Source: a virus | DNA length: 22,312 nucleotides | IMG/VR virus record: IMGVR_UViG_3300046517_002499 | Location: 1 to 22,312 of that record | Reading direction: 5' to 3' (one strand) | In this document: piece by piece, positions 1 through 22,251 of the stretch | Layout of the letters: each line of letters begins with the position of its first letter | Numbering within the stretch: the first letter of the stretch is position 1 | Made by a program: the position numbers and the translations under genes | Notes under the pieces: model-generated | What the model saw: the letters and a program-made list of their open reading frames with translations, nothing else | Told to the model about the DNA's origin: nothing | Databases searched by the model: none

Positions 1-628
1 TGTCGCCGTAGCGCTTGTTGAACCAGTCGTTGAACTTCGCCTCGCAGCGCTGCATGCCGTCGGGGCTGTGGAGCAGCAGCTCCTTGAAGCCCTGCAGCCA
101 GAGCGCGCGGCGGGTGATGTTGGCCTGGAAATAGACGTGGTCGGAGACGCAGAGCTTCTGCCCGTCGAAGACCACTTCTTCCTTTGTCCACCATTCGGCG
201 CGATTGGGCCGGTGCGCGCCCTTTACCGGCAGAGTGTCGCGCTTGTTGAAGCGGACATGGTTGAGGGCGTTGCGCTGCATCAGATCGAGGCAGCGAGCGA
301 CGGGGACCTCACGGACGAAGTCGAAATCTTCCTGGGTGTAGAAGACGAACTCGGTGCTCGCCACCTCGAGGAGGCGCAGCATCGCGAGAGCCAGCCCCTG
401 GCCCGGGCGCGTCGGGATCAGCTCGGTGAGCACGATGTACTCGCGTCCGATCGCCGCCAAGATCTCCTCGGTACGACCCTCGACGACGGGCCGGCCGGGG
501 CGCGCGTCCTCGTGAACGATGATCCGCGTCGGCAGCTGGTCGACGCGGGAGAGCATCGAGCGGAGGGTGCGGTTGAGCAGGTCGCCGCGGTCGTGCACCG
601 AGGAGACGATCACGTCGTAGGGGATCAC
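1..628 (-). CDS. Glycosyltransferase, GT2/GT-A-like, C-terminus outside window
   Basis: This is a partial gene: the first 209 codons are visible and the frame runs open off the left edge. The GTG start at 628-626 overlaps the TGA of the upstream glycosyltransferase (GTGA), which fixes the start. The protein opens with a Rossmann-like strand (PYDVIVSSVHDRGDLLNRTL) followed by an Asp/Arg-rich turn (HEDARPGR, residues 39-46). An acidic cluster, QEDFDF at residues 99-104, sits after a hydrophobic strand (EFVFY) as the metal/nucleotide-sugar-binding DxD does in GT-A enzymes. No transmembrane segment or signal peptide is visible, so a cytoplasmic enzyme is expected. The sugar donor and acceptor cannot be read from the sequence. 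It is the third of three coupled glycosyltransferase genes at the distal end of the tail operon. Family-level call is fairly sure; substrate unknown. Confidence 0.8.
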   Translation of the reverse strand, partial: MIPYDVIVSSVHDRGDLLNRTLRSMLSRVDQLPTRIIVHEDARPGRPVVEGRTEEILAAIGREYIVLTELIPTRPGQGLALAMLRLLEVASTEFVFYTQEDFDFVREVPVARCLDLMQRNALNHVRFNKRDTLPVKGAHRPNRAEWWTKEEVVFDGQKLCVSDHVYFQANITRRALWLQGFKELLLHSPDGMQRCEAKFNDWFNKRYGD

Positions 629-1515
629 TTGAGAGCTCCTCGCCACATGTCGGCGTAGTTTTTCGAGAGGTCGCGCCACGACCAGGCGCGCTCGACGGTG
701 GCGCGCGCGGCCTCGCCCATCTGCGCGGCCCGCTTCACGTCGAAGGAGAGCGCCCGCAGCGCGCGGGCCATGCTCTCGGCGTTGCGCTCGACGAGGACGC
801 CATTCTCCCCATCGGCGATGAACTCGGGCATGTTGCCAATCCGGTTGCTCACCACCGCCACACCGCAGGCCGCAGCCTCGAGCGCGGGATTCGGCGTGCC
901 ATCCATGTCGGAGGCGACGCAGAGGACGTGCAGGTCCTGATAGAACTCGCGCATCGCCTCGGGGCCGAGCGCATCGCGGTAGGTGCGACCGACGGTACGC
1001 AGCTCGACGCCGGCGACCTTGCAGGCCGCGGCGACGATGTCCGATCCCTTGCGCGGGTTCGGCTTGCCAACCCAGCCGACCACCAGGTGCTTGTCCTGCT
1101 CGCGCTGCCGGGTGCGGCGGAAGAAGGTCTCGTCGACGCCGTTGGGGCAGTAGGCGATGGGACGCTGCAGGAGCGTCGCCATCTCGGCCTCGAGGAGCCG
1201 GCTGTTGGCGTGGAAGGCGCGGGCGGCCTCCGACCAGCGGCGGACCGTGCCGGCGCCGTGCTTCTGCTCCCACGTGGGCCAGACGTGCGCGGTCATGCCG
1301 GTGACGTAGGGCAGGCCCGAGGGAAGCTTCGACGCCTGGAAGACCTCGAAGGTGTTGTAGAGGTCGCGCCCGGGCGGGAGCGGATCGGGCCGCGAGCCGT
1401 AGAGGCAGGCGATGTCGATCTCGAATTCGTCGGAGAGGTAGCGCTTGAGCTGCTCGGCCTTCCGCGCCCATGCCCAATTCGGCACGTCGGCGAGGATCGA
1501 GACCCGCGGTCTCAC
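625..1515 (-). CDS. Glycosyltransferase, GT4 family (GT-B fold)
   Basis: The 296-aa protein has the two-lobed layout of GT-B glycosyltransferases. The N-terminal lobe ends near PIAYCPNGVDETFF (residues 119-132), and the C-terminal lobe begins with VVGWVGKPNPRKGSDI (145-160). The GT4 nucleotide-sugar signature is DGTPNPALEAAACGVAVVSN (205-224), with E213 in the usual acidic position, followed by MPEFIADGENGVLV. It would transfer a sugar from an activated donor in the cytoplasm; the acceptor is not known. The GTG start at 1515 overlaps the TGA of the preceding gene, so the long upstream open frame is not used. It ends in a GTGA overlap with the next glycosyltransferase. No membrane anchor is visible. 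Possible roles are decoration of virion proteins or change of host surface sugars; the context (directly after fibre genes) does not decide between them. Confidence 0.9.
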   Translation of the reverse strand: MRPRVSILADVPNWAWARKAEQLKRYLSDEFEIDIACLYGSRPDPLPPGRDLYNTFEVFQASKLPSGLPYVTGMTAHVWPTWEQKHGAGTVRRWSEAARAFHANSRLLEAEMATLLQRPIAYCPNGVDETFFRRTRQREQDKHLVVGWVGKPNPRKGSDIVAAACKVAGVELRTVGRTYRDALGPEAMREFYQDLHVLCVASDMDGTPNPALEAAACGVAVVSNRIGNMPEFIADGENGVLVERNAESMARALRALSFDVKRAAQMGEAARATVERAWSWRDLSKNYADMWRGALK

Positions 1516-2438
1516 GCGGCCCTCCGCGCGCCCACCAGCTGCTCGAGCGCGCCGGCGACCACCTCGGCGTAGGGGCGCAGGCTGAGCGGCTCGAGCTGGT
1601 GCCGCAGCGCGCCCTGCAGCGCCATCGCCCAGGCGAGCGGCGGCGCGCCGAGGGGCACATAGGAGGCGCCATCGAGCAGCGCCGCGCGCGTGGCCGGTAG
1701 GTCGGTGCAGACGATGGGGATCCCGCGCACCGCGGCTTCGACCAGGGTGAGGGGGTGGATCTCCTCGCGGGTCGGCGATAGGACCGCCCGAGCGCGCGCG
1801 AGGAAGGTCGCCGGCGGCACCAGGCCGGGCGCCACCTCGGCGTTGCGCAGCGCCTGCCAGGGCTGCAGGTCGTGCGCGGCATGCCGGCCGGGGAGGACGT
1901 ACCAGCGCAGCTCGGGACAGAGCTTGGCGACCTCGCGGGCGATGTAGCCGCCCTTGGCCGCGCCGGCCCCGGGGACGAGGATCGCGTCGCCGACCACTCG
2001 ATTGACGACCTCGGCGGCCCAGCTGGATGGCGGCAGCAGGAGCACGCTCCGCCATCCCTGGGCGCCGAGCACCGCGGGGCGGTTGAGGCCCGCCAGCATG
2101 CCGCCGAGGCCCTGCGGGACCGATCCGTGGTGATGCCAGAAGACCGTGCGGTCGATCGCTCCGGCCTTGGTGGCGTCGAGCGCCAGTCGCCGCCACTGCG
2201 GTTGAATCGTCGAGATGATCAGGTCGGCGCTGAAGTCGGCGGGGCCGTAGAGCGGCGAGCGCTCGCGCCACTCGATGCGCGGGTGCTTCCACGCGGGAGT
2301 CGCGCCGCCGCCCGTGTAGCCGCGTACCTGGTGGCCGAGCTCGGCGAGCGTAAAGGCGAGGTAGGCGGCCGCCATCGCCATGCCGTCAGGCGCACCTTCG
2401 GGACTTCCCCAGCGTCGAGCGATGACATCGACGATCAC
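1512..2438 (-). CDS. Glycosyltransferase, GT-B fold (GT1/GT4-like)
   Basis: The protein has 308 aa from a GTG start at 2438 that overlaps the TGA of the upstream fibre-region gene. The N-terminus shows a glycine-rich opening after the first strand and helix (RRWGSPEGAPDGMAMAAAYL), as in GT4 enzymes that bind the acceptor there. The C-terminal signature is TREEIHPLTLVEAAVRGIPI (residues 223-242) followed by VCTDLPATRAAL; E226 and E234 form the E-x7-E pair typical of retaining GT-B transferases. It is the first of three glycosyltransferases joined by GTGA overlaps, so the three are probably made together and at levels coupled to the fibre genes. Sequence similarity to its neighbour 625-1515 is low, so it is not a simple tandem duplicate. 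Donor and acceptor are unknown. No signal peptide or membrane helix is visible. Confidence 0.86.
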   Translation of the reverse strand: MIVDVIARRWGSPEGAPDGMAMAAAYLAFTLAELGHQVRGYTGGGATPAWKHPRIEWRERSPLYGPADFSADLIISTIQPQWRRLALDATKAGAIDRTVFWHHHGSVPQGLGGMLAGLNRPAVLGAQGWRSVLLLPPSSWAAEVVNRVVGDAILVPGAGAAKGGYIAREVAKLCPELRWYVLPGRHAAHDLQPWQALRNAEVAPGLVPPATFLARARAVLSPTREEIHPLTLVEAAVRGIPIVCTDLPATRAALLDGASYVPLGAPPLAWAMALQGALRHQLEPLSLRPYAEVVAGALEQLVGARRAA

Positions 2439-2950
2439 GGCAAGAACTCCAGCTCCCAGGACGCGACCACCGCCCCCGCGGGGACCGCAGCGCCGAGGGA
2501 GTCGCTGTAGTTCCAGGTCGAATAGGTGATCATCCCGACGTGGCAGGTGGTCGATGCGATCACCGGGAAGGTGCCGTCGGCGTTCGGGGTGGCGGTGGCT
2601 CCGGATTGCGGTTTCCAAAACGGAGGCGAATGCCACACGACCCCGATCGCCGCCTTGAAAGCGTCGGAGAGCGGGCGCAGGCGAACCTTGGTGACTCCCG
2701 CCGGAACGGAAATCGGATCGCTGAGGGATCCGTCGTCGGAGAGGATCAGCGCTTCATTCGAAGGATCCGGATCGGGAGGGCTCGCGATTCCACCAGTGGC
2801 GACGGTGGCGATCGGAAAGCTCGACCCTCCCGGTGTTTGCGCGGTCCACTTCCCACCCTCGACGGTGGCCACCTGCCCGTCGGCGAGCTTCGACGGATCG
2901 GGGAACGCCGGGGGGCGCTTCATGCCGCGAGGGCCGCGACTGAGACTCAT
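2435..2950 (-). CDS. Unrecognised beta-rich protein, probable distal tail-fibre/tip component
   Basis: This 171-aa protein is not one I recognise. The ATG at 2950 overlaps the TGA of the upstream gene (ATGA), so the longer open frame reaching 3430 is a read-back extension. The N-terminus is basic and Pro-rich (MSLSRGPRGMKRPPAFPDPS), followed by a short segment GQVATVEGGKWTAQTPGG (residues 24-41) of the kind seen in phage fibre linkers. The rest is Ser/Thr/Val/Gly-rich and strand-prone, with repeated Trp and Tyr near the end (TYSTWNYSD), resembling a small carbohydrate-binding or tip beta-sandwich. There is no signal peptide. Position between the fibre genes and the glycosyltransferases suggests a receptor-binding role or a substrate for glycosylation; this is inference from place and composition only. 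Confidence 0.72.
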   Translation of the reverse strand: MSLSRGPRGMKRPPAFPDPSKLADGQVATVEGGKWTAQTPGGSSFPIATVATGGIASPPDPDPSNEALILSDDGSLSDPISVPAGVTKVRLRPLSDAFKAAIGVVWHSPPFWKPQSGATATPNADGTFPVIASTTCHVGMITYSTWNYSDSLGAAVPAGAVVASWELEFLP

Positions 2951-3390
2951 CGGACGACACCGGAATGGGCGGTGATGTCGAGCGTCGCGAAGCTTCCACC
3001 GCCGCTCACCTTCACGTTGTGCATCACGACGAGGGTCCAGCCGGAGGGGATCGTCAAATCGATGTCGATCTCGTCGCTGGCGAAGGGACCCGGCAGCGCA
3101 TCGCCGGCGGCCACCGCAAAGGCGCCGACGATGTAGACGTAGCCGCCGTGGCCGTACTCCTCGTTCTTCAGGCCGACGACGATCTGGCCCGCTTCCGTCG
3201 AGTAGCTGTGCGCGCAGTAGCGCAGCGATTCGACAAGGATCGGCTCCTCGACTTCGAAGAAGAGCTCCTTCCAGTCGGCGAGCGTCGACGGGGGAAGGGT
3301 TCGCCCGAGGATTCCGAAGTCGGTCTCCGGCGAGATGATGGCCTGGTTGATGCCGACCCGCGGGTCGCGGATAAACAGGGGTCCACTCAT
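2947..3390 (-). CDS. Unrecognised beta-rich protein, possible tail-fibre segment
   Basis: The 147-aa protein starts at ATG 3390, preceded on its strand by a good Shine-Dalgarno-like GAGAGGA about 9 nt upstream. It begins MSGPLFIRDPRVGINQ and then alternates polar loops with strands (AGQIVVGLKN, GGYVYIVGAFAV, GWTLVVMHNVKVSG), a composition expected of a jelly-roll or galactose-binding-like domain. No family is recognised. It is the first minus-strand gene after the lipoprotein interruption and overlaps the next gene by an ATGA. With 2435-2950 it probably supplies the distal receptor-binding part that the short fibre adaptor at 3789-4292 lacks. No catalytic motif, signal peptide or membrane helix is seen. 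Confidence 0.72.
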   Translation of the reverse strand: MSGPLFIRDPRVGINQAIISPETDFGILGRTLPPSTLADWKELFFEVEEPILVESLRYCAHSYSTEAGQIVVGLKNEEYGHGGYVYIVGAFAVAAGDALPGPFASDEIDIDLTIPSGWTLVVMHNVKVSGGGSFATLDITAHSGVVR

Positions 3391-3538
3391 GATCTAGGTC
3401 CTCTCCGCGAGCGATTCGATCGCATCGCACCGACGGGAGCGCGCACGCTCACCGACGGGGGAAGTCGTAACTGCATGCTTTTGCATGCAAATCACCGACG
3501 GTGTTGACCGGCGCATGCTCGGAGATCCATCGTTGAGC
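3391..3538. promoter_or_regulatory. Divergent intergenic control region with repeats
   Basis: This 148-bp spacer separates the minus-strand fibre gene (start 3390) from the plus-strand lipoprotein (start 3539). It holds GAGCGATTCGA (3409-3419), CACCGACGGGAGCG (3428-3441), CACCGACGGGG (3450-3460), CACCGACGGTG (3493-3503), the 10-bp palindrome TTGCATGCAA (3481-3490) and the left arm of a 10-bp inverted repeat (3511-3520). TTGACC at 3504-3509 could be a -35 for the lipoprotein, but no convincing -10 follows. The first two motifs also occur in the other intergenic block at 19483-19691. Confidence 0.55.
3428..3503. repeat. Three CACCGACGG-core repeats
   Basis: Copies start at 3428, 3450 and 3493 (22 and 43 bp apart). 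The first, CACCGACGGGAGCG, is identical over 14 bp to the copy at 19577-19590. The array lies about 38 nt upstream of the minus-strand start at 3390, so in the direction of transcription it reads CGCTCCCGTCGGTG. Confidence 0.65.
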
Positions 3539-3542
3539 ATGC
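3472..3542. repeat. Cluster of four GCATGC palindromes
   Basis: GCATGC occurs at 3473, 3483, 3513 and 3537, four times in 70 bp, against only scattered single copies in the rest of the window. The copy at 3483 is inside the 10-bp palindrome TTGCATGCAA. The last two are embedded in the arms of the inverted repeat over the lipoprotein start. It looks like an operator array. Confidence 0.5.
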
Positions 3543-3544
3543 GC
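3511..3544 (+). promoter_or_regulatory. Perfect 10-bp inverted repeat covering the lipoprotein start codon
   Basis: GCGCATGCTC (3511-3520) and GAGCATGCGC (3535-3544) are exact reverse complements with a 14-nt spacer. In RNA the two inner G-U pairs could extend the stem. The AUG at 3539-3541 lies in the right arm and the only nearby Shine-Dalgarno-like GGAG (3521-3524) at the loop edge, so the hairpin would hide both. The same bases could instead be a DNA operator. Confidence 0.55.
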
Positions 3545-3781
3545 AAGTACCTCGCCTTCCTGGTTCTCCTCGTTGGCTGCGGAACCGCCGCCCTCCCCGT
3601 CAATCCCGCCGACGGCTCGATCGACGCCGATGCAGTCGACGCCGGCCCCTGCGGCGCGGTCGGCGAGCGCTGTTGCGCGCCGGCTGAAGCTGCGAAGGCC
3701 TGCGACGTCTTCTCGCCGTTCGGGTGTGGCGTCGAGGGCGTGTGCTGCGCCATCGGCGCCGGCGGCCACTGCATCGAATAG
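3539..3781 (+). CDS. Small Cys-rich lipoprotein, probable moron gene
   Basis: This 80-aa protein is the only supported plus-strand gene. From ATG 3539 it has a short lipoprotein signal: MRKY, a hydrophobic core AFLVLLVG and the lipobox L11-V12-G13-C14. In-frame ATGs at 3515 and 3485 would add a non-signal leader, so 3539 is preferred. The mature part has a linker (NPADGSIDADAVDAG) and eight further Cys at 38, 45, 46, 55, 63, 69, 70 and 78, with two CC pairs, suggesting a disulfide-bonded knot outside the cytoplasm. Gly at +2 gives no inner-membrane retention signal of the E. coli type. Its TAG lies 7 nt from the end of the convergent fibre adaptor gene, and it splits the fibre genes. Known phage lipoproteins often block superinfection; that role is inferred, not shown. 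It has strong coding features but its family is not recognised. Confidence 0.78.
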   Translation: MRKYLAFLVLLVGCGTAALPVNPADGSIDADAVDAGPCGAVGERCCAPAEAAKACDVFSPFGCGVEGVCCAIGAGGHCIE

Positions 3782-4871: not shown

Positions 4872-6048
4872 TCTCGACCCCGCCGTAGGTGAGGGTCGCG
4901 TACCCGATGCGCGAGCACTGATCGCTCATCAAGGCCTCGAAGACGAAGGGCAGTGGGAGCACCACCCGCTTCGCGCCGGCGTTCACCAGGCGCGTGGTCA
5001 GCTCCGACGGGTTGATGTCGCGCCCGATCGCCTGCTGCCAGAGCACGTAGGCGTCGAAGGCCAGCGCGACCGCGGCCTGGATCTCGATGGCCGACTTCGA
5101 CCGGCTCTTCGCGATGTAGTAGGTCGCGTCGACGTCGAAGTCGCGGAAGATCGGTGTCTTCTCCACGACGTGGTCGGTGAGCGGACGAACGTCTTCCGCC
5201 GAAAGCGCGGCGCCGACGGTGGTGAGGAGCCCGGCGCTCGGCGTGGGGATCGTCGAGATCAACACGCCGTTGGCGTCGCGCGTGCCCTCGGTGAGGAAGA
5301 TCCACACGTCGCCGGCGGGCGGTGGCGGATTGCTCAACATGTCGGCGGCATCGCGCGCGCCGAGGGCGACGACATCGGCGACGGAGGCCGAGGCCTCGAG
5401 CGCGGCCGCCTCGTAGGCGATGCGCGGGCCGCAGGTCGAGCGGCTCTCGGGGACCAGGCGCAGGCGCTCGCGGAAGGCCTCGGTGGTCTCGATGTCGCGC
5501 CCCGAGATAGTCTCGGTGGTGTTGACGACGCCGGTGCAGCCGAAGATCGGGTCGACGAGGGTGTCGATCTGCCCTGGCGTGACACCGTTCGAAGTCGACC
5601 CGGGGACGGTACAGAAGACGGGCGCATCGAGGAAGGTGACGTTGCCAATGGACGAAACATCGCCGGAGCCGACTGCCCAGGTGTTCGTACCGTCGGTGAC
5701 CTTCGTGCCGTGGGGAATGGTCTGCGGTCCGGAGACCGCGAAGGAGAAGCGGATAGTGCAGGTTGAAGGCTCGGCCGGGAGTGGCTTCTCGCCCCAGAGC
5801 TCGGCGAGCGCCTGAAGGAAGAGCGCCTTCTCGATCGGCATGTTGAGATCGACGTAGCGCAGTAGGTTCTGCTTGCCGCTGTAGTCGATGAGCTGCCGCT
5901 GCTGCGCGAGCAGGAGCAGAAAGGCCTGCAGGTGCAGCCGTCTCGGATCGGCCTCGGCCAGGTGCACGCCGGTCTCTTCGAAGTAGATCTGCAGCGCCTG
6001 GGCGAGGACCGTCGCCGCGTCTTTTTCTGCGAAGGTGAGGGTGCTCAT
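4864..6048 (-). CDS. J: Baseplate wedge protein J (P2 gpJ-like)
   Basis: The 394-aa protein has the layout of the baseplate J family. An N-terminal helical region (EKDAATVLAQALQIYFEETG; DPRRLHLQAFLLLLAQQRQL) is followed by ALFLQALAELWGEKPLPAEP, a conserved feature, then a strand domain (FSFAVSGPQTIPHGTKVTDG), and the motif FRERLRLVPESRSTCGPRIA before AYEAAALEASASVADVV. It forms the baseplate wedge with gpW and gpI. Its ATG at 6048 overlaps the TGA of the gpW gene. The length is slightly above that of P2 gpJ, about 300 aa, because of an insert around residues 120-165. Confidence is high. Confidence 0.95.
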   Translation of the reverse strand: MSTLTFAEKDAATVLAQALQIYFEETGVHLAEADPRRLHLQAFLLLLAQQRQLIDYSGKQNLLRYVDLNMPIEKALFLQALAELWGEKPLPAEPSTCTIRFSFAVSGPQTIPHGTKVTDGTNTWAVGSGDVSSIGNVTFLDAPVFCTVPGSTSNGVTPGQIDTLVDPIFGCTGVVNTTETISGRDIETTEAFRERLRLVPESRSTCGPRIAYEAAALEASASVADVVALGARDAADMLSNPPPPAGDVWIFLTEGTRDANGVLISTIPTPSAGLLTTVGAALSAEDVRPLTDHVVEKTPIFRDFDVDATYYIAKSRSKSAIEIQAAVALAFDAYVLWQQAIGRDINPSELTTRLVNAGAKRVVLPLPFVFEALMSDQCSRIGYATLTYGGVEND

Positions 6049-6709: not shown

Positions 6710-7236
6710 TTGGCGCTCACCTTCTCGGCGGCCGGAGCATCGATCGTCGGCTTGAGCGGGAGCGCGGCGACGATCGTCGACTTCAGGCTCGCGCCGCCGT
6801 CCTGTGCGACTACGACACCGCCCTTGATCGCCGTGGCGATCCCGTCGGCATAGTCGAGCGCCTTCTGGATCTCGTCCTTCGTCGCCGGAGCGAGCGCTAC
6901 CTTGTCGCTGGCATCGGAGGCGCCGAGGCGCACGTCGTCGCCGGCGACCACGCGCCGAGCGCTGTCATCGGTCGGCGGCGCGTCGCTGTCGGTGTAGAAG
7001 ACGCCAAGGCAATAGCCTACGCCCTTGTACCCGTCGCCGATAAAGCAGAGGACCGGGTCGTCCTTCGCCGGCATCGAGTAGTCGCCTCGGCGGCTGAACA
7101 TCATCGGGAGATCGTCCGAGATGAAGCCGCCCTCGGTGTCGTTGTCGTCCTTGCGACCCTCGAAGAATCGCACCTTGACGGTGTGCTTCTTCCCGTCCAC
7201 CGAGGAGACGCGGCCCGATCGGATCTCGCCGCGCAT
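6706..7236 (-). CDS. V: Baseplate assembly protein V (spike-like, OB-fold)
   Basis: The 176-aa protein begins MRGEIRSGRVSSVDGKKHTV with the OB-fold strand pattern of baseplate protein V: KVRFFEG, then GFISDDLPMMFSRRGDYSMP and VLCFIGDGYKGVGYCLGVFY. In P2-like phages gpV is the central membrane-piercing spike under the hub gpD. After residue 100 the sequence is short and ends with an Ala/Lys-rich helix-prone stretch; the repeated polar strands and the HxH iron site found at the tip of P2 gpV are not seen. ATG 7236 is one base from the gpD stop; the open frame extending to 7338 overlaps gpD and is not needed. Family call is good; tip structure is uncertain. Confidence 0.87.
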   Translation of the reverse strand: MRGEIRSGRVSSVDGKKHTVKVRFFEGRKDDNDTEGGFISDDLPMMFSRRGDYSMPAKDDPVLCFIGDGYKGVGYCLGVFYTDSDAPPTDDSARRVVAGDDVRLGASDASDKVALAPATKDEIQKALDYADGIATAIKGGVVVAQDGGASLKSTIVAALPLKPTIDAPAAEKVSAK

Positions 7237-13766: not shown

Positions 13767-14329
13767 GTCTCACCCAGGGCGCGCTCGATCTCGTGATCGA
13801 TGCGCTCGTCGAGGACCTCGAGGGCGCGCTGCTCGACGGCGGCGCGGACGCTGTCGGCGCCGAGCATCACCGCGATCGGCACCGAGTAGACCGAGGCGAT
13901 CGCCTGCTTGCCGGTCGCGGTCTTCCCGCCGGTGCGCAGCATCACTCGGGGAGCGCCGTTGATCGTCGCGATGAAGGCGCCGGGGAACGGCTTCGAACTG
14001 CCGCGGCGGACCTCGGCGCGCAAGATGGGGCGACCCGGGCCGCCGGTGCCGGGGCGAGCCGGCGAGTGCGGGAAGTAGCCGAGCGCCAGCGCCGGCGACT
14101 TCGCTTCGACGCGGACCTCGAGATTTTCGGGGGTCGCGGTCGAGAGGGTGATCTTCGAGCGGACGTCGCTCGACTTCACCGCGTAGCGCTCGCCGATCGC
14201 GGTGACCGCGGCCTGGCGGCCGGCCACCGCGGCGCGGTTGAGCGCGCGCGCCATCGCGCGAGCGGCCGCGCCCGGGAGCTCGCGCAGCGCCTCTTCGACG
14301 CGATCCGTCTGTGCGTCGGCGGTGATCAC
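13763..14329 (-). CDS. Z: Minor tail/connector protein Z-like (GPZ family)
   Basis: The 188-aa protein starts at GTG 14329, overlapping the TGA of the upstream gene; the open frame to 14554 is its read-back. It matches the prophage minor tail protein Z pattern: a charged start, then EEALRELPGAAARAMARALN and RAAVAGRQAAVTAIGERYAV, then KSSDVRSKITLS, followed by strands with GTGGPGRPILRAEVRRGSSK and FPGAFIATINGAPRVMLRTG. In lambda gpZ acts in the tail completion step that lets DNA enter the tail. Here it lies on the head side of a contractile tail module. Confidence 0.88.
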   Translation of the reverse strand: MITADAQTDRVEEALRELPGAAARAMARALNRAAVAGRQAAVTAIGERYAVKSSDVRSKITLSTATPENLEVRVEAKSPALALGYFPHSPARPGTGGPGRPILRAEVRRGSSKPFPGAFIATINGAPRVMLRTGGKTATGKQAIASVYSVPIAVMLGADSVRAAVEQRALEVLDERIDHEIERALGET

Positions 14330-16229: not shown

Positions 16230-17401
16230 GATCCGTTTCCTCCTCGACGAGCGTTCCCGCCGTCGGCGATGGCTTTGATGACCCGGGCCCGTGCGGCCTG
16301 GTCGCTGTTCTCGACGACGCCGGGGCTGACGGCGGCGATCGGCCTGGATTCGATCTGGCGTCGCGCGAGCAACTCGGCGCCGGCGCCCTTCTGCGCTTTC
16401 ACGATCTCGACGGCGAGAGTCGGCGCATCGGTCGGCTTCTCGCCGTACTTCGCGGCCTGCACCAGGTCGGCGCAGCCCATCACCGGCAGCTCGTCGATCG
16501 CCGCGAGGCGCGCGCGCTCGGCGGCGACGCCGGCGGCGCGGCCTTCTTCGAGGATCGAGGCGAGGAGCGCGGGCTCGCGCTGCTCGAGCTCGGCGCGGGT
16601 GATCGGCGCGGGCGGCAGGAGCGGCGGCACCAGCGCGAGCACCGGCGCGGCCTCGGCAACCGGAACCGGCGGCGCGGGCTTTTTCGCCATTGCGACGATC
16701 TGCGCCGGCATCGACGAGCGCGGGAAAGAGACGCGGTTGAAGACGATCACCTCGCCGCGATCTTCCGGCGGCTCGTTCTCGTTGCCCTCGTTGGGGTCGT
16801 TCGGATCCGGCTCGGCGTCACCACCGGCGGCGTAGTTGGCGACCTCATCGGCGAAGCCCTTGGCGACCGCTTCCTCGGCGGTCATCCAAGTCTCTTCGTC
16901 GATCATCGAGTTTATCGCCTCGAGGCTCTTGCCTGTCTTCTCGGTGTAGATGCTCGCGAGCGCGTCCTGCACCTTGTCGAGCGTGTCGGCGAGCTTCCGC
17001 AGCTCGGTGGCGTTGCCATACAGCCCCGACGATGGGGGATGGATCATCATCATCGCGCCGCGTCCCATGACGGTCTTGCCGGCCATGGCGACGAGAGAGG
17101 CGGCGCTGGCGGCAAGACCTTCGACGATGCAGGTCACCTCGCCGGGGTGCGTCTGCAGCGCGGCATACATCGCGACACCGCCGAAGGCGCTCCCGCCGAC
17201 GCTGTTGATCCGGCAGCTCACCGTCTTCGCGTCGAAGTGATCTTGCAGGCTCTGCACGATCGGCGCGGTGGCGATCGCGTCGTCGCCCCAACCGCCGTCG
17301 ATCACCCCGTGAAGCTGGATGTCCAGATGCTTCGAACCGTCGGAGCCCTTCTTGACGGTGAGATTGCAGAACTTCGTCGGGCTGGTGGTTTCGATCTTCA
17401 C
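16226..17401 (-). CDS. Head maturation protease, S49/ClpP-like, with scaffold-like C-terminus
   Basis: The 391-aa protein has a ClpP-type serine protease domain in residues ~25-190: VSCRINSVGGSAFGGVAMYA (61-80), the nucleophile region EGLAASAASLVAMAG (94-108, probable catalytic S99), MMMIHPPSSGLYGN with H121, and SMIDEETWMTAEEAVAKGFA with D168 a candidate third residue. Residues ~190-391 are Pro/Ala/Glu-rich and helical (ERARLAAIDELPVMGCADLV), like the scaffold half of lambda C/Nu3. No Shine-Dalgarno is seen before the internal ATGs (M231, M238), so a separate scaffold product is not supported. The GTG start at 17401 overlaps the portal stop. It would cut portal and scaffold during prohead maturation. 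Confidence 0.92.
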   Translation of the reverse strand: MKIETTSPTKFCNLTVKKGSDGSKHLDIQLHGVIDGGWGDDAIATAPIVQSLQDHFDAKTVSCRINSVGGSAFGGVAMYAALQTHPGEVTCIVEGLAASAASLVAMAGKTVMGRGAMMMIHPPSSGLYGNATELRKLADTLDKVQDALASIYTEKTGKSLEAINSMIDEETWMTAEEAVAKGFADEVANYAAGGDAEPDPNDPNEGNENEPPEDRGEVIVFNRVSFPRSSMPAQIVAMAKKPAPPVPVAEAAPVLALVPPLLPPAPITRAELEQREPALLASILEEGRAAGVAAERARLAAIDELPVMGCADLVQAAKYGEKPTDAPTLAVEIVKAQKGAGAELLARRQIESRPIAAVSPGVVENSDQAARARVIKAIADGGNARRGGNGS

Positions 17402-19074
17402 GCTACTGCCTCCTTCGGGGCCGGTTCCTCAGCGACGGACGCCGGCGACGGCGATGCGCCCGAGGGCGGGATCACCTGGTCGGCGCGACGGAGCTTCTCC
17501 TCGCGAGCGCGCACGCGGTGGTTGCGCTCCCAGTTGCCGCCGGTGAGAGCCGCGGTCTCCTGGGTGCGCGTCGAGAAGCCGCCTTCGACGCGCTTCTCGG
17601 CGGCCTCGACTTCCTTCGTCGGATCGAGCTGACCCTGCGCCGGACCGGTCCACTCCGCGCCGCACCAGGCCGCGCGGGTGATCGGGTCGGCGAAGAAGCC
17701 CTTCGCCTCGATGTAGCCGCGGGCCACCGCCTCCTCGAGCCACTGCTCGTAGATCGGCTGGCAGAAGCGCGAAGCCATGCGGAGGCGGCCGACGGCGAAG
17801 CGCTTCCACGCCTCGAGGAGCGCGGCGCGGCTCGCCGAGTAGCTCGACGCGAACTCCATCTCGAGCAGCTCACGCGGCAGGCCAAGGCCCGCGCCGATGT
17901 GCCGGCAGATGGAGCGAACGAAGGGATCGAAGCCGGCATTCGGGCGCCCCGGGTTGACCGCCTCGAGCTTTTCGCCGGGGAGCAGGCCGAGCACCGCGCC
18001 GTTGCCGAGCTGGTAGCTGGCCGGATCGTCGGGGAGCTCCTGCACCTGCGCGCCGGGCGGCAGGACCTGCGCCGGCATCGGCGACGGGCGATCGCTGGTG
18101 ATCGCCGCGGTGAACATCCCCGAGACGACGGCCGCCATGATCTCGGCGTCGCTGTAGCGCGAGAGCTGCTTCAGGCGCTCCATCACCGGCGCGAGGATCG
18201 GGACGCCGCGGCGCTGGCCGGGGCGGTCCGATTCCATGATGTGCAGCACCATGCGCCGGCCCGTCGCTGCGCCGAAGGCCGGGATCTCGTCCCAGTGATT
18301 CCACTGGGCGCCATAGATGCCTCCCTCGATCATCGGCGGGATGGACACCGCGCCGTAGGCGTAGGCGCCATATCCGCCGTAGGTGCCGGGGAGAAACAGA
18401 TCGCCCGGATGAACGCGGGCGACGTAGTAGGAAATTGGCGCGCCATCCTCGTCGACCTTGACGCCGCCGAGGGTGTTCGTTCCGACCGGGTAGGGCCAGG
18501 GATCGGAGACGCGATCGGCCTCGAGGAGCTTGACCTTGAGGTCGTAGCGATCGCCCTGGCGCTGGATCGACGGCAGCATCACGAAGACGTCGCCGCTCAT
18601 GAGCTCCGAGAGACGCGCGAGGGCCTCGAGCTCGCCGAGGTTGCAGCGGCGCGACGCGTCGCAGGAGAGACTGTCGGCCCAGAGCGCGAACTCCCGCTCG
18701 GTGGCCTCTTCCCACTCGATCGCCTGGTCGTCGGAGAGGCCGAGGAACTTGGCGTCGATCTGCGAATTCAGCTTCAGGCCGGCGCCGATCTCGTTGGTCC
18801 GAATCGTCTTCAGCGCGCCGATCGCCAGCGGCTCGCCCATGCAAAGGTCGCGGGAGCGCTGGCGAAGGAGGTCGAGGTTGAGCGTGATGTCGGCGTCGGG
18901 CCCGCCCCGCGAGGTGAGCCACCCGGCCATGCTCTTGGTCTGGCGCGAGGCCCCGTGCTGCGAATAGCCCTGGTTCTTGATCAGCGCGGTTTTCTGGCGC
19001 GCGTGTTCGCGGCGCAGGCCCCATTCGGGGGCGAGCTGCTCGACGAAGCCGAGGGCGCGATCGATGAGTCCCAT
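17398..19074 (-). CDS. Portal protein (lambda gpB family)
   Basis: The 558-aa protein starts at ATG 19074 (MGLIDRALGFVEQL), sharing one base with the TGA of the upstream small gene; the open frame to 19215 overlaps that gene and is rejected. Lambda-portal features: SRDLCMGEPLAIGALKTIRT followed by NEIGAGLKLN (residues ~74-103), SGDVFVMLPSIQRQGDRYDL, KVKLLEADRVSDPWPYPVG, RRGVPILAPVMERLKQLSRY, and FVRSICRHIGAGLGLPRELL followed by EMEFASSYSASRAALLEAWK. It is the twelve-fold ring through which terminase packs DNA. The last ~70 residues are charged and flexible. High confidence. Confidence 0.95.
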   Translation of the reverse strand: MGLIDRALGFVEQLAPEWGLRREHARQKTALIKNQGYSQHGASRQTKSMAGWLTSRGGPDADITLNLDLLRQRSRDLCMGEPLAIGALKTIRTNEIGAGLKLNSQIDAKFLGLSDDQAIEWEEATEREFALWADSLSCDASRRCNLGELEALARLSELMSGDVFVMLPSIQRQGDRYDLKVKLLEADRVSDPWPYPVGTNTLGGVKVDEDGAPISYYVARVHPGDLFLPGTYGGYGAYAYGAVSIPPMIEGGIYGAQWNHWDEIPAFGAATGRRMVLHIMESDRPGQRRGVPILAPVMERLKQLSRYSDAEIMAAVVSGMFTAAITSDRPSPMPAQVLPPGAQVQELPDDPASYQLGNGAVLGLLPGEKLEAVNPGRPNAGFDPFVRSICRHIGAGLGLPRELLEMEFASSYSASRAALLEAWKRFAVGRLRMASRFCQPIYEQWLEEAVARGYIEAKGFFADPITRAAWCGAEWTGPAQGQLDPTKEVEAAEKRVEGGFSTRTQETAALTGGNWERNHRVRAREEKLRRADQVIPPSGASPSPASVAEEPAPKEAVA

Positions 19075-19235
19075 CAGAGACCCATCTTTCGATAGTCGTT
19101 GCCGCCCTCGATGATGAAGCGTTTCACCCGCTCCTTGGCGACCTCTTCTCGCAGCTCTTCCGGAGCGCTGGGAAGGCGCGGAATCGGATAATCGATTCGC
19201 GGCGGCGGCGGCCATGAGATCTTCCGCTGCAGCAC
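19074..19235 (-). CDS. 53-aa protein of unknown function between gpW-like protein and portal
   Basis: A 53-residue frame starts at GTG 19235, one base after the stop of the preceding gene, with GAGGGA about ten bases upstream on its strand. It ends TGATG, sharing a base with the portal start. The N-terminus is Pro-rich (SWPPPPRIDYPIPRLP, residues 7-22); the rest is a charged helix (PEELREEVAKERVKRFIIEG). I do not recognise a family. Tight coupling at both ends supports it as a real gene; it could be a small head-joining or packaging accessory. The longer frame to 19355 overlaps the neighbour and is not used. Confidence 0.68.
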   Translation of the reverse strand: MLQRKISWPPPPRIDYPIPRLPSAPEELREEVAKERVKRFIIEGGNDYRKMGL

Positions 19236-19236
19236 G

Positions 19237-19482
19237 CTAGAGGTCCCTCGGCATGACGCGGAAGATCGGAATCCCGGCGCGCTTGCCCGCGTTGATCTGG
19301 TCGACGGCCTGGTCGTACTTCGAAAACTGTTGCTGGACGTATTTCGCGTCGACACGGGTCAAGGTTCGACCGGCGATGGTGTAGCTTTGCCCCGTCGCCA
19401 AGGCCTGCAACGCCGCCAACCAGGCGGCGCGGAGGGCTTGGGCTTCTTCGAGCGACAGGGCCATCGCACGAAGAAAAGCCAC
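19237..19482 (-). CDS. Small head-joining protein, DUF6148/gpW-like
   Basis: The frame allows GTG 19482 (81 aa) or ATG 19464 (75 aa, MALSLEEAQALRAAWLAALQ). The second start gives the usual N-terminus for this family, although an AAGG lies upstream of the first. The core is QALATGQSYTIAGRTLTRVD, then AKYVQQQFSKYDQAVDQINA and a basic end (GKRAGIPIFRVMPRDL). That is the helix, beta-hairpin (x-Y-x-I-x-G-R-x-L-T), helix plan of lambda gpW, which plugs the portal after packaging and readies the head for tails. Its place between terminase and portal agrees with lambda order A-W-B. The 209-bp repeat block lies just upstream. Confidence 0.85.
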   Translation of the reverse strand: MAFLRAMALSLEEAQALRAAWLAALQALATGQSYTIAGRTLTRVDAKYVQQQFSKYDQAVDQINAGKRAGIPIFRVMPRDL

Positions 19483-19530
19483 AGCGCGATCAGCCTTGCC
19501 AGGGTTGCCCCTCGCAGTTTCGGAGGGTCT

Positions 19531-19655
19531 CAGCGACGGGAGCGATTCGAGGTGTATGACAGAAATTCGAGGCCTTCACCGACGGGAGCGAACTTTCGAA
19601 ACACCGAAAGTGTCATACGTTTTCGCGATTTTTCCGGCCGCCACCGACGGGGACG
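19531..19655. repeat. Three CA(C/G)CGACGGG boxes
   Basis: Boxes start at 19531 (CAGCGACGGGAGCG), 19577 (CACCGACGGGAGCG) and 19642 (CACCGACGGGGACG). The middle one is identical to the copy at 3428-3441. GAGCGATTCGA at 19540-19550, overlapping the first box, is identical to 3409-3419. Confidence 0.7.
19592..19611. repeat. 7-bp inverted repeat with 6-nt loop
   Basis: ACTTTCG (19592-19598) pairs with CGAAAGT (19605-19611) across AAACAC. The right arm runs into the first AGTGTCATAC box. There is no T-run after it on either strand, so it is more like an operator than a terminator. Confidence 0.5.
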
Positions 19656-19686
19656 GAGTGTCATACACTTCGAGGTCGATTTTTCC
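19609..19686 (-). repeat. Two tandem promoter-like cassettes
   Basis: In the minus direction GGAAAAATCG (19686-19677 and 19635-19626) is followed by GTATGACACT (19666-19657 and 19618-19609) at 10- and 7-nt gaps. GTGT and ACAC form half-sites about ATG, so each GTGTATGACAC-like box is nearly palindromic. Confidence 0.55.
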
Positions 19687-19691
19687 GCGGA

Positions 19692-19898
19692 TTAGGGGCC
19701 GACGCCGCGCGAAAACACGCGCCGGCGCGGAGCTGGCGCTACCGGGGCGGGTTTCTGCTCCTGCTCCATGATCGCGACTCCGCGCTGCATCGCGAGCCGC
19801 GCCGCCGTCGAGAAGTCCACGCCGAGCACGCGAGCCAGGGCCTCGAGGCGCTCGACGAGGCCGTCGGGCAGACGGATCGTTTTGGGCTTCGCGCTCAC
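19692..19898 (-). CDS. Ribbon-helix-helix protein with terminase-like C-terminal tail
   Basis: The 68-aa protein starts at GTG 19898 in a GTGA overlap with the large terminase, with a strong AGGGGG Shine-Dalgarno on its strand. Residues 6-45 (KTIRLPDGLVERLEALARVL, then GVDFSTAARLAMQRGVAIME) form the strand, helix, helix plan of CopG/Arc-type DNA-binding dimers. A Pro/Ala linker follows, then RRRVFSRGVGP (58-68). The large terminase just upstream ends in RRRVYSRGIG after a similar Pro/Ala linker. The codons for the shared motif differ at most positions, so it is not a recent DNA duplication. The protein may bind the repeats in the adjacent block and, through the tail, the same head partner as terminase. 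DNA-binding fold is likely; target and tail role are inference. Confidence 0.85.
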   Translation of the reverse strand: MSAKPKTIRLPDGLVERLEALARVLGVDFSTAARLAMQRGVAIMEQEQKPAPVAPAPRRRVFSRGVGP

Positions 19899-21733
19899 CC
19901 GATCCCCCTTGAGTAGACCCGTCGTCGAGGAGCTCGAAACGGCGCGGTAGCCGGCGCCGGCGATCCGCGGCGATTCTCCTCGGCCGCGGCGAGCTGCGCG
20001 AGGTAGGCGTCGCCGCCGTTCGTCGAGACCACCAGCTCCATCGCCGCCGTCGCATAGACCCGGCAGTCGAGGGGCTCGTTACGTGCGTACGTCTGCACCC
20101 ACCCGAGGACTCGGCGTCCGGCGCGCACCTTGGCCTTCCGTCGCTCCGAGACCAGGCCCTTGAAGTACTCGGCGTCGTAGCCGGTCTCGCGTGCGACCGG
20201 GAAGTGACAGGCACCCGGGCCCGGGAGCGCCAGCATCAGCCGCGAGTAGAGGACACCCTTCGCGCCGTCGACGCCGACCGCGAAGAGGTTCGCGCCCAGC
20301 TTGTTGAGCGTCGGCTTCCCGACGATTGGCCGGCCGTCGCCGGCGTAGCCTTTGATCGCGAAGACGTTGCGCGCCGTGCGATCGCGGCAGAAGGCGTAGA
20401 CCTCGTCGGTGCGGTGGCCGCCCGAGTCGACGCATGCGCACCAGAGCGGGACCTTCGACTCGTCGGGGCGCGACCAGGTGCGCGCGAGAAGCGCATCGAG
20501 TGCCAGCCACGGCGCCGGCGTCGAAGTGTCGCCCGGCAAGATCGCGTAGTGAATGCCCCAGGATTCTTTCGACGCGCCCCAGCCGACTACCTCGACCTCG
20601 AGGCGGTTGTCCTGCACGTCGACGCCGGCGACGAGGAGGAGGACGCCGTCGGGGATCTCGGCTTCGTACTCCTCGCGATTCTTCTCGAGCGCCTCGACGG
20701 TGATCTCGTCGCCGGCCTCCGACCAGGTCTCGCCCAGGCGCAGGTTGACGAACTCCTGCAGGCCGCGCTTGTCGCGATCGCGGTTGGCCTTCACCCACTC
20801 GGCGGCGAGCTCCGACCAGCGCACCCACGGTGAGTAGAGACCCGAGAGCTGATAGCCGCGGTAGGCGTGGCCCGGATTGTCCGCGCGCCACTCGCAGGCC
20901 TCGAGCAGCTCGGGGCGATCGCGCTCCTCGATGCGGCCTTTGCAGTGCGCGCAGCGGTAATGCGTCCCGGGGAGGTCGACGTCGCCGGCGGCGTTCTTGT
21001 AAATCACGTCGGACCACTCGAGCACCTGGTAGGCGCCGCACCGAGGACAGGGAACCCAGAGCCGGCGCTGGTCGGTGTCCTCGTAGAGCCGCTCGATCCG
21101 CGACTGGCCCTCGATGGTCGGCGTCGAGACCGCGACGATCTTCCGGTTGTGGAAGTTGGCGGTGCGCTGGCGCGCCTGCTCCCACGGATCGCCGTCGCGA
21201 CCGATTGCGTCGGGCCAGCGGTCGAGCTCGTCGCCGAGCACGACGCGGATCGGCCTCGAGGCGAGCGAGGCCGACGACGTCGCCCACGCCATCGCGAGGT
21301 AGCCGCCGGGGAACTGCCGCAGATAGACCGTGTTCGACGGATCGCGCTGGTGCTCGGAGAGCTTGCCGCGCAGCGACGGCGACTCGCGGAACGTCGGCTC
21401 GAGGCGCTCCTTCGAGAACGCGGTGGCCGCGCCCTCGGTCGACTGGATCAAGAGCATCGCCGACGGGTCCTGCGAGGCGTAGTAGCCGATCGCGTTCAAG
21501 AGCAGCTCCGACTTCGCGACCTGGCTGCCAGCCTGCACCACCAGGCGCTCGACGGCCGGGTCGGAGATCGCGTCCATCGGCTCGCGCAGGTAGGGGACGC
21601 GCGACGTGCGCCAGGGGCCAGGCTCCGGCGACGTGCCGCGCGGGATCACCCGATGCGCGTCGGCCCACTCCGAGACCGTGAGGTGAGGGCGGGTCACATA
21701 TGACGCCCCGGCGGCACCGCCCCAGAGGCTCAC
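19895..21733 (-). CDS. terL: Terminase large subunit (GpA family)
   Basis: The 612-aa protein is a GpA-type terminase. Residues 1-60 contain the family opening LTVSEWADAHRVIPRGTSPE. The ATPase has AGSQVAKSE (68-76, Walker A-like) and VVLGDELDRW (164-173, Walker B with D168/E169). A zinc-finger-like set C229, C232 (CPRCG), C261, C264 (CAHC) lies between the domains. The nuclease part has AGVDVQDNRLEVEVVGWG (369-386, D372), VDSGGHRTDEVY (435-446, D436), and GYDAEYFKGL (518-527, D520). It cuts concatemeric DNA and drives it into the prohead. The C-terminal segment APRRRVYSRGIG (601-612) matches the tail of the next protein; in lambda the gpA C-terminus binds the prohead portal. The ATG at 21733 overlaps the small subunit stop. 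Confidence 0.96.
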   Translation of the reverse strand: MSLWGGAAGASYVTRPHLTVSEWADAHRVIPRGTSPEPGPWRTSRVPYLREPMDAISDPAVERLVVQAGSQVAKSELLLNAIGYYASQDPSAMLLIQSTEGAATAFSKERLEPTFRESPSLRGKLSEHQRDPSNTVYLRQFPGGYLAMAWATSSASLASRPIRVVLGDELDRWPDAIGRDGDPWEQARQRTANFHNRKIVAVSTPTIEGQSRIERLYEDTDQRRLWVPCPRCGAYQVLEWSDVIYKNAAGDVDLPGTHYRCAHCKGRIEERDRPELLEACEWRADNPGHAYRGYQLSGLYSPWVRWSELAAEWVKANRDRDKRGLQEFVNLRLGETWSEAGDEITVEALEKNREEYEAEIPDGVLLLVAGVDVQDNRLEVEVVGWGASKESWGIHYAILPGDTSTPAPWLALDALLARTWSRPDESKVPLWCACVDSGGHRTDEVYAFCRDRTARNVFAIKGYAGDGRPIVGKPTLNKLGANLFAVGVDGAKGVLYSRLMLALPGPGACHFPVARETGYDAEYFKGLVSERRKAKVRAGRRVLGWVQTYARNEPLDCRVYATAAMELVVSTNGGDAYLAQLAAAEENRRGSPAPATAPFRAPRRRVYSRGIG

Positions 21734-22251
21734 GGTGCGCCCCCGGCGAAGGTGCTGTGCACCGAGGCGATCGTCGCTTCGACCTCGGAGGAGATCAGCG
21801 CCTCGACGGCGGCCGCACGCAACGGCGGCGCGTCCGGCCGGGCCAGAATTGATTCGACGGCGAGGGCGACGCGCGAGGGGATCTGCCGCAGCCGAGAGCA
21901 GATCGCGGTGTGCGTCTCGGTCGCGTCCTTCACGACCTCGGCGCGGCTAACGTACTCGCCGGACTTCTGGCGCAGCTCGAGCTCGCGCAGTTTTACTCTC
22001 TGCTCCCGCTCGGCGACCTGGGCTGCGAGGAGACGCGCCTCGTTTTCGCGCTCGGCCGTCGTTGCGGTCTCCTTCGCGCGCGCCTCCTCCTCGCGCAGCT
22101 TCCTGATCTTGTCGATCGACGACGGCGCGATCTTCCCGTCCGGGTCAGTCTCGAGTTTGCCGGCGGTGATCCAGCGGAAGATGGACGACGCCGACACACC
22201 TGCGCGCTTCGCAGCGGCGGCCTGGGAGAGGCCTTTGGGCGGCTTCTTCAC
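21730..22251 (-). CDS. terS: Terminase small subunit (Nu1-like)
   Basis: The 173-aa protein starts at GTG 22251 and has a winged-helix/HTH start: LSQAAAAKRAGVSASSIFRW (residues 8-27) followed by ITAGKLETDPDGKIAP, as in lambda Nu1, which recognises the packaging site. A long charged coiled-coil follows (RKLREEEARAKETATTAERE; VAEREQRVKLRELELRQKSG; residues ~50-100), then a C-terminal helical domain (THTAICSRLRQIPSRVALAV). It is the specificity subunit of the terminase and contacts the large subunit encoded next with an ATGA overlap. Shine-Dalgarno upstream is weak (GGGGCGGG, about 8-15 nt away). It is probably the first gene of the packaging operon. Confidence 0.92.
   Translation of the reverse strand: MKKPPKGLSQAAAAKRAGVSASSIFRWITAGKLETDPDGKIAPSSIDKIRKLREEEARAKETATTAERENEARLLAAQVAEREQRVKLRELELRQKSGEYVSRAEVVKDATETHTAICSRLRQIPSRVALAVESILARPDAPPLRAAAVEALISSEVEATIASVHSTFAGGAP

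Follow-up and report, generated by a model that had tools for sequence, protein, structure and literature searches.

The packaging locus described here raises the question of why a small ribbon-helix-helix (RHH) protein should share its short C-terminal peptide with the large terminase subunit (TerL) that is encoded directly upstream of it. The window, meaning the whole stretch of DNA analyzed, corresponds to a 22,312-base IMG/VR virus record whose minus strand carries a lambda-like packaging and head block in the order small terminase subunit (TerS), GpA-type TerL, RHH protein, gpW-like adaptor, portal, ClpP-like protease, gpD-like protein and capsid protein E. TerS (21730–22251, minus strand; PHROG 57, 2.7e-15) is followed by the 612-residue TerL (19895–21733, minus strand; PHROG 15), which is GpA-type by definition, the GpA ATPase and GpA nuclease domains both being present (Pfam GpA_ATPase 2.5e-77 and GpA_nuclease 1.4e-89). 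The RHH protein of 68 residues (19692–19898, minus strand) begins at a GTG codon overlapping the TerL stop codon (GTGA), an overlap shared by three related genomes, L003, L004 and L287. Beyond it lie the gpW-like head-tail adaptor (19237–19482, minus strand; DUF6148, PHROG 118) and the lambda-family portal protein (17398–19215, minus strand; Phage_portal_2 8.2e-90), the presumed dock of the terminase. A weak tail-sheath match in the window suggests a contractile tail for this phage. One or more glycosyltransferase-like genes are located downstream of the tail genes (625–2636, minus strand; Pfam Glyco_trans_1_4, 4.9e-17 for 625–1515).

The peptide shared by TerL and its neighbor

An earlier note on this DNA, made from its letters, had reported that TerL ends PRRRVYSRGIG and that the adjacent 68-residue protein ends PRRRVFSRGVGP, and both ends were found in place. 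The tail proper covers TerL residues 602–612 (19898–19930, minus strand) and RHH residues 57–68 (19695–19730, minus strand), and both are predicted to be disordered. The TerL linker occupies residues 590–601, so the linker and tail described in the note exist but its boundary of about 591–602 had to be shifted. The codons of the two tails differ as had been claimed: the tails agree at seven of the nine motif residues, and at not one of these seven is the codon the same; recent DNA duplication is thereby ruled out as the origin of the match in the window, and selection rather than such a duplication would therefore maintain it.

The peptide match is far beyond chance. In 20,000 shuffles its ungapped BLOSUM62 score of 57 over 12 residues was never attained, and among 6,034 ORF tails of related loci a single one, apart from the TerL tail itself, matched that tail better and belonged to another TerL. 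The C-terminal pattern RR[VIM].S.G[VI] was carried by 18 of 13,144 ORF tails of related loci, every one of them a TerL or this RHH protein. When the ORF tails of loci fetched later were scanned, ranks 1 and 2 of 5,583 went to the RHH proteins of L280 (the same as L003) and L287, and in a DNA pattern search over 29 records the window and the contig of L003 were the only viral records in which the coded motif was located twice, in TerL and RHH. Copies of the tail were also sought on gpW-like proteins and none was found, the C-termini of these proteins being different. A programmed frameshift fusing TerL to the RHH protein was considered and rejected, as no conserved slippery site was seen at the junction when it was read by eye.

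On the terminase side, the RR[VIM]xSxG[VI] tail is an old feature. The motif ends 23 of 166 non-redundant GpA-type TerLs with complete ends, including all five that are more than 60% identical to the window TerL and several below 40%; the TerLs of the cultured Vibrio phage X29 and of E. coli relatives also have this tail. Across 16 aligned TerLs of 37–80% identity, chosen for having the tail, R604, R605, S608 and G610 are invariant, and the stretch that precedes the tail varies in length and sequence. In the AlphaFold model of TerL the last helix spans residues 576–589, and pLDDT is below 50 for residues 591–612 except 608.

Both proteins act on DNA and both peptides are arginine-rich, and it could be argued that the tails are merely basic ends which raise DNA affinity and have come to resemble each other by convergence. 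This is very improbable in our estimation, as the serine, the glycine and the two aliphatic positions are fixed as firmly as the arginines and no match beyond TerL and RHH proteins appeared among the 13,144 ORF tails; moreover, where a GpA-type TerL ends in a basic tail of another kind, its neighbors lack a matching end, one DNA duplication (L054) excepted. The L054 case, which obtained the top score in the tail scan, was set aside as a plain genomic duplication unrelated to the RHH case. There, the 3′ end of terL is directly duplicated over 158 bp (5767–5924 and 6710–6867; 88% identical), reaching past the stop codon and with other sequence between the copies.

The RHH protein and its orthologues

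The assignment of the small protein to the RHH fold stands below the Pfam cut-off by sequence and is supported by the predicted fold. The window protein matched Pfam RHH_1 with an E-value of 0.0068 and 16.8 bits (cut-off 20.5), the same family was matched by all three RHH members tested (best E 0.0014), and the PHROG Arc-like repressor match had an E-value of 0.0017. In the predicted model, an extended N-terminus is followed by helices at residues 12–25 and 29–47 and by a disordered end, giving the strand-helix-helix order of the fold, in which the strand pairs only in the dimer and the model is of a single chain. The top PDB fold matches were mostly CopG and other RHH proteins (best 1b01 and 2cpg), with weak E-values (0.2).

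Direct searches yielded no relatives of the RHH protein in IMG/VR and only chance matches in phage records, and relatives were reached through TerL and portal searches instead. An RHH profile had no match in six genomes reached through the loci, nor in 291, 5 and 47 genomes from three of their phyla, which are guesses at the host. In all, five RHH-bearing genomes were found (the window, L003, L004, L283 and L287), of which L287 and L283 came from a portal search blind to the tail and thus constitute an independent test. The comparison of both C-termini within each genome, as proposed in the earlier note, gave the following result: all five TerLs carry the tail, and so do the RHH proteins of the window, L003, L004 and L287, while the RHH end of L283 is unrelated. 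The core of the three tail-keeping orthologues is only about 40% identical to that of the window protein (39–43%).

In L003, TerL (70% identical to that of the window) ends RRRVLSRGVEW and the RHH protein RRRVLSRGVDS. In L004 the corresponding ends are RRRVHSRGVE (TerL, 81%) and QRRVLSPGVR; this pair alone is not strong, its score being reached by 492 of 20,000 shuffles, and its weight comes from homology. In L287, TerL ends APRRRVVSKGVDW and the RHH protein, with a core only 43% identical to that of the window, ends QRRRVLSKGVGF; both tails have lysine (SKG) at the position where most others have arginine, which fits a shared partner. The RHH variant of L004 (SPG, in RRVLSPGVR) resembles the TerL end of a further locus, L282 (RRILSPGVRW), and the changes seen in RHH tails (SKG in L287, SPG in L004) are ones that TerLs also allow. 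Covariation of the TerL and RHH tails within genomes is suggestive only: among 24 permutations of the pairing the within-genome one takes rank 2, a statistically weak result.

Between RHH orthologues, amino-acid change in the tail is low and synonymous change is high: from the window to L287, the tail has a pS of 0.87 and a pN of 0.25, as compared with 0.51 and 0.37 for the core. In L283, TerL ends APRRRVLSRGVQW and the RHH protein ADEVSRRGSA, the tail having been lost because the reading frame runs into downstream boxes and repeats (GTCATAC, GCCGTCGCTGA); this end looks as a deletion would leave it, and an RHH protein without the tail indicates that the tail is not indispensable.

The slot that separates terL from the gpW-like gene

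Accessory genes seem to be inserted at the position that rhh occupies. L282 has a lipoprotein-like gene in the slot (2850–3244) at the same GTGA overlap and without the tail, L006 has the gpW-like gene directly after TerL, and Vibrio phage X29 has three opposite-strand genes there; the slot therefore takes up varied accessory genes, and the tail is limited to RHH. These observations bear on the reading that the RHH tail is a relic, left when an rhh cassette was inserted at the 3′ end of terL and retained a copy of that end, one with no present function. The overlap of the rhh start with the terL stop, the exchangeable content of the slot (L282 and X29), the loss of the tail in L283 and the occurrence elsewhere of a DNA-level duplication of the terL end (L054) are all in line with it. 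Nevertheless, the peptide has persisted in four genomes in spite of heavy change at synonymous sites, the L282 slot gene has no such tail although it starts at the GTGA overlap, and no identical codon is left between the two tails of the window, and we regard a functionless relic as distinctly unlikely.

A non-coding region of 209 bp, region A (19483–19691), separates rhh from the gpW-like gene and contains an array of repeated boxes. The first box, CCCGTCGGTGG (CCCGTCGSTG type), is present in three copies (19641–19651, on the minus strand, 19576–19586 and 19530–19540) with spacings of 46 and 65, and the second, GTATGACA, likewise in three (19659–19666 and 19611–19618 on the minus strand, 19554–19561 on the plus strand), which hold the only TATGACA occurrences in the window. 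The array recurs at the same place in the L003 contig (L199, 13746–14271) and in L287 (2617–3004). The CCCGTCG-type boxes of L003 have spacings identical to those of the window (46 and 65) within surrounding sequence that has diverged to 55% identity overall. In L287, TTGTCCCACA boxes replace GTATGACA, and the ribbon residues of the L287 protein differ as well. Boxes were found in all five rhh genomes, in the slot or, for L283, at the 3′ end of rhh, and the slot of L282, which lacks rhh, has none. By this co-occurrence the array is a candidate operator of the RHH protein. Scans of region A for sigma-70 promoters and Rfam families returned no matches. Region A may alternatively be a cos site or cos-like element, the equally spaced boxes resembling cosB repeats; against this reading, the boxes accompany rhh, are missing from the L282 slot and recur at a second intergenic site.

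The second cluster consists of CCCGTCGGTG boxes with a TGCATGC palindrome (window 3427–3502; L200 18483–18558) and is conserved in L004. It lies within the tail-gene region, at the start of a plus-strand cysteine-rich lipoprotein-like ORF (3485–3781). The L003 contig (L199, about 14040–14269, plus strand) and the L287 slot additionally have, between rhh and the gpW-like gene, an opposite-strand gene for a zinc-ribbon plus glycine-rich membrane protein, which is absent from the window; the two copies of this zinc-ribbon gene are 59% identical to each other.

With reference to this arrangement, the RHH protein might be an ordinary local repressor of the neighboring accessory gene or of the head genes, its tail being a side feature with no docking role. 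The box array does lie upstream of the opposite-strand zinc-ribbon gene in L003 and L287, and L283 keeps the RHH protein without the tail. Retention of the tail in four genomes would be left unexplained, and a repressor of this ordinary kind is accordingly, in our view, quite unlikely.

A putative common dock at the packaging vertex

The function of the extreme TerL C-terminus has been established in lambda, where the Aam42 mutation removes the last five gpA residues, leaving nicking intact and blocking portal docking (PMC4856287, which cites Sippy and Feiss 1992 for the C-terminal prohead-binding domain of gpA), and where a suppressor of a gpA docking mutation lies in the connector (PMC2366019). 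Packaging motors show the terminase–portal contact itself at poor resolution (HK97 clip domain, PMC10359639). The lambda parallel drawn in the earlier note is sound for function, gpA being a GpA-family TerL whose extreme C-terminal residues serve portal docking; in sequence, the lambda tail ends ALSGEDE and lacks the motif. Lambda also has nothing in the slot, W being the next gene after A. Judged by position, the portal contact of the window TerL would be expected at its C-terminal residues SRGIG.

What is observed here is that the two proteins share a peptide, that it is conserved in four of the five orthologues, that the genes overlap and that a conserved array accompanies rhh. Comparison with related genomes strengthens the original observation, and the docking interpretation given in the earlier note is plausible and in part supported. 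The explanation we prefer, tentatively and at somewhat short of an even chance, is that the RHH and TerL tails share one dock, most likely the portal, while the RHH ribbon binds DNA. The RHH protein, probably made by translational coupling with TerL, would be a DNA-binding protein, dimeric as its fold implies, whose disordered C-terminus presents a copy of the TerL docking peptide RR[VI]xSxG[VI]. Since that tail copies the docking peptide of the terminase, both tails would bind one partner, for which the portal at the DNA-entry vertex is the likeliest candidate. The ribbon would bind DNA, and its likeliest target is the box array that follows rhh directly. The protein would thereby connect a site on DNA with the packaging vertex, either as a local regulator whose DNA binding is altered when free portals are present or as a packaging accessory that may aid the terminase in docking or leaving. 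Weighing against a shared dock at the portal, the choice of the portal as receptor is drawn from lambda, which has a different tail sequence; the basic tail could bind nucleic acid instead; and one orthologue out of five (L283) is tail-less in a set of five RHH members in all.

A related reading accepts the tail as a true shared docking peptide and places its receptor elsewhere. Examples would be TerS, TerL itself, a different protein of the head or a host factor, and the RHH protein would then control or compete for that partner. It draws on the same sequence evidence, and the lambda tail differs in sequence, so that the receptor cannot simply be transferred; on the other side, in the one case studied a GpA-type TerL contacts the portal through its extreme C-terminus, and TerS binds the opposite end of lambda gpA. 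A receptor other than the portal is thus unlikely, albeit a serious contender. Within the preferred reading of a shared portal dock, the RHH protein may act as a reader of assembly state, free portals drawing it to the dock, changing its hold on the repeat array and setting it in competition with the terminase, a more specific scheme that we consider unlikely. If true, it would tie packaging to gene expression through one short peptide.

Among known systems, CopG/Arc-type RHH repressors have the helix-helix core behind an extended N-terminus that is predicted for the window protein, and to our knowledge none of them carries a terminase-like C-terminal peptide or resides inside a terminase operon. 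RHH antitoxins of type II toxin-antitoxin systems combine an N-terminal RHH with a disordered partner-binding tail, a layout that the window protein shares. Unlike them, rhh has no adjoining toxin gene, its neighbors being the genes for TerL and the gpW-like adaptor, and its tail copies the end of a packaging enzyme. The nearest functional analogy is lambda gpFI, a packaging chaperone proposed to unite prohead, DNA and terminase through prohead and DNA binding (PMC4856287). It differs from the window protein in its reported targets, the capsid lattice (gpE) and non-specifically bound DNA (PMC4856287), and in gene position, the window protein being predicted as RHH and having no match to the gpFI family in Pfam or PHROGs. 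In keeping with the earlier note, which knew of no such protein, none was found in the literature searched (open-licence full text). An "Arc-like repressor" of Vibrio phage X29 (L198, 8510–8824), encoded after the capsid gene, is not RHH-like by eye and has no terminase-like tail.

A shared dock would constitute a case of two unrelated phage proteins using one short docking motif for the packaging vertex, and the RHH tail would provide a natural competitor peptide for mapping the terminase–portal contact. The RR[VIM]xSxG[VI] motif is common to a wide set of GpA-type terminases, which makes the contact open to direct mutational test. Other GpA-type TerLs end in ...FVSNW, ...YYDDW or ...RSxWM, and the TerL C-termini of loci L003 to L340 fall into a few recurrent short classes (RRVxSxGV, RSxWM, FVxNW and YYDDW), which could perhaps match different portal types.
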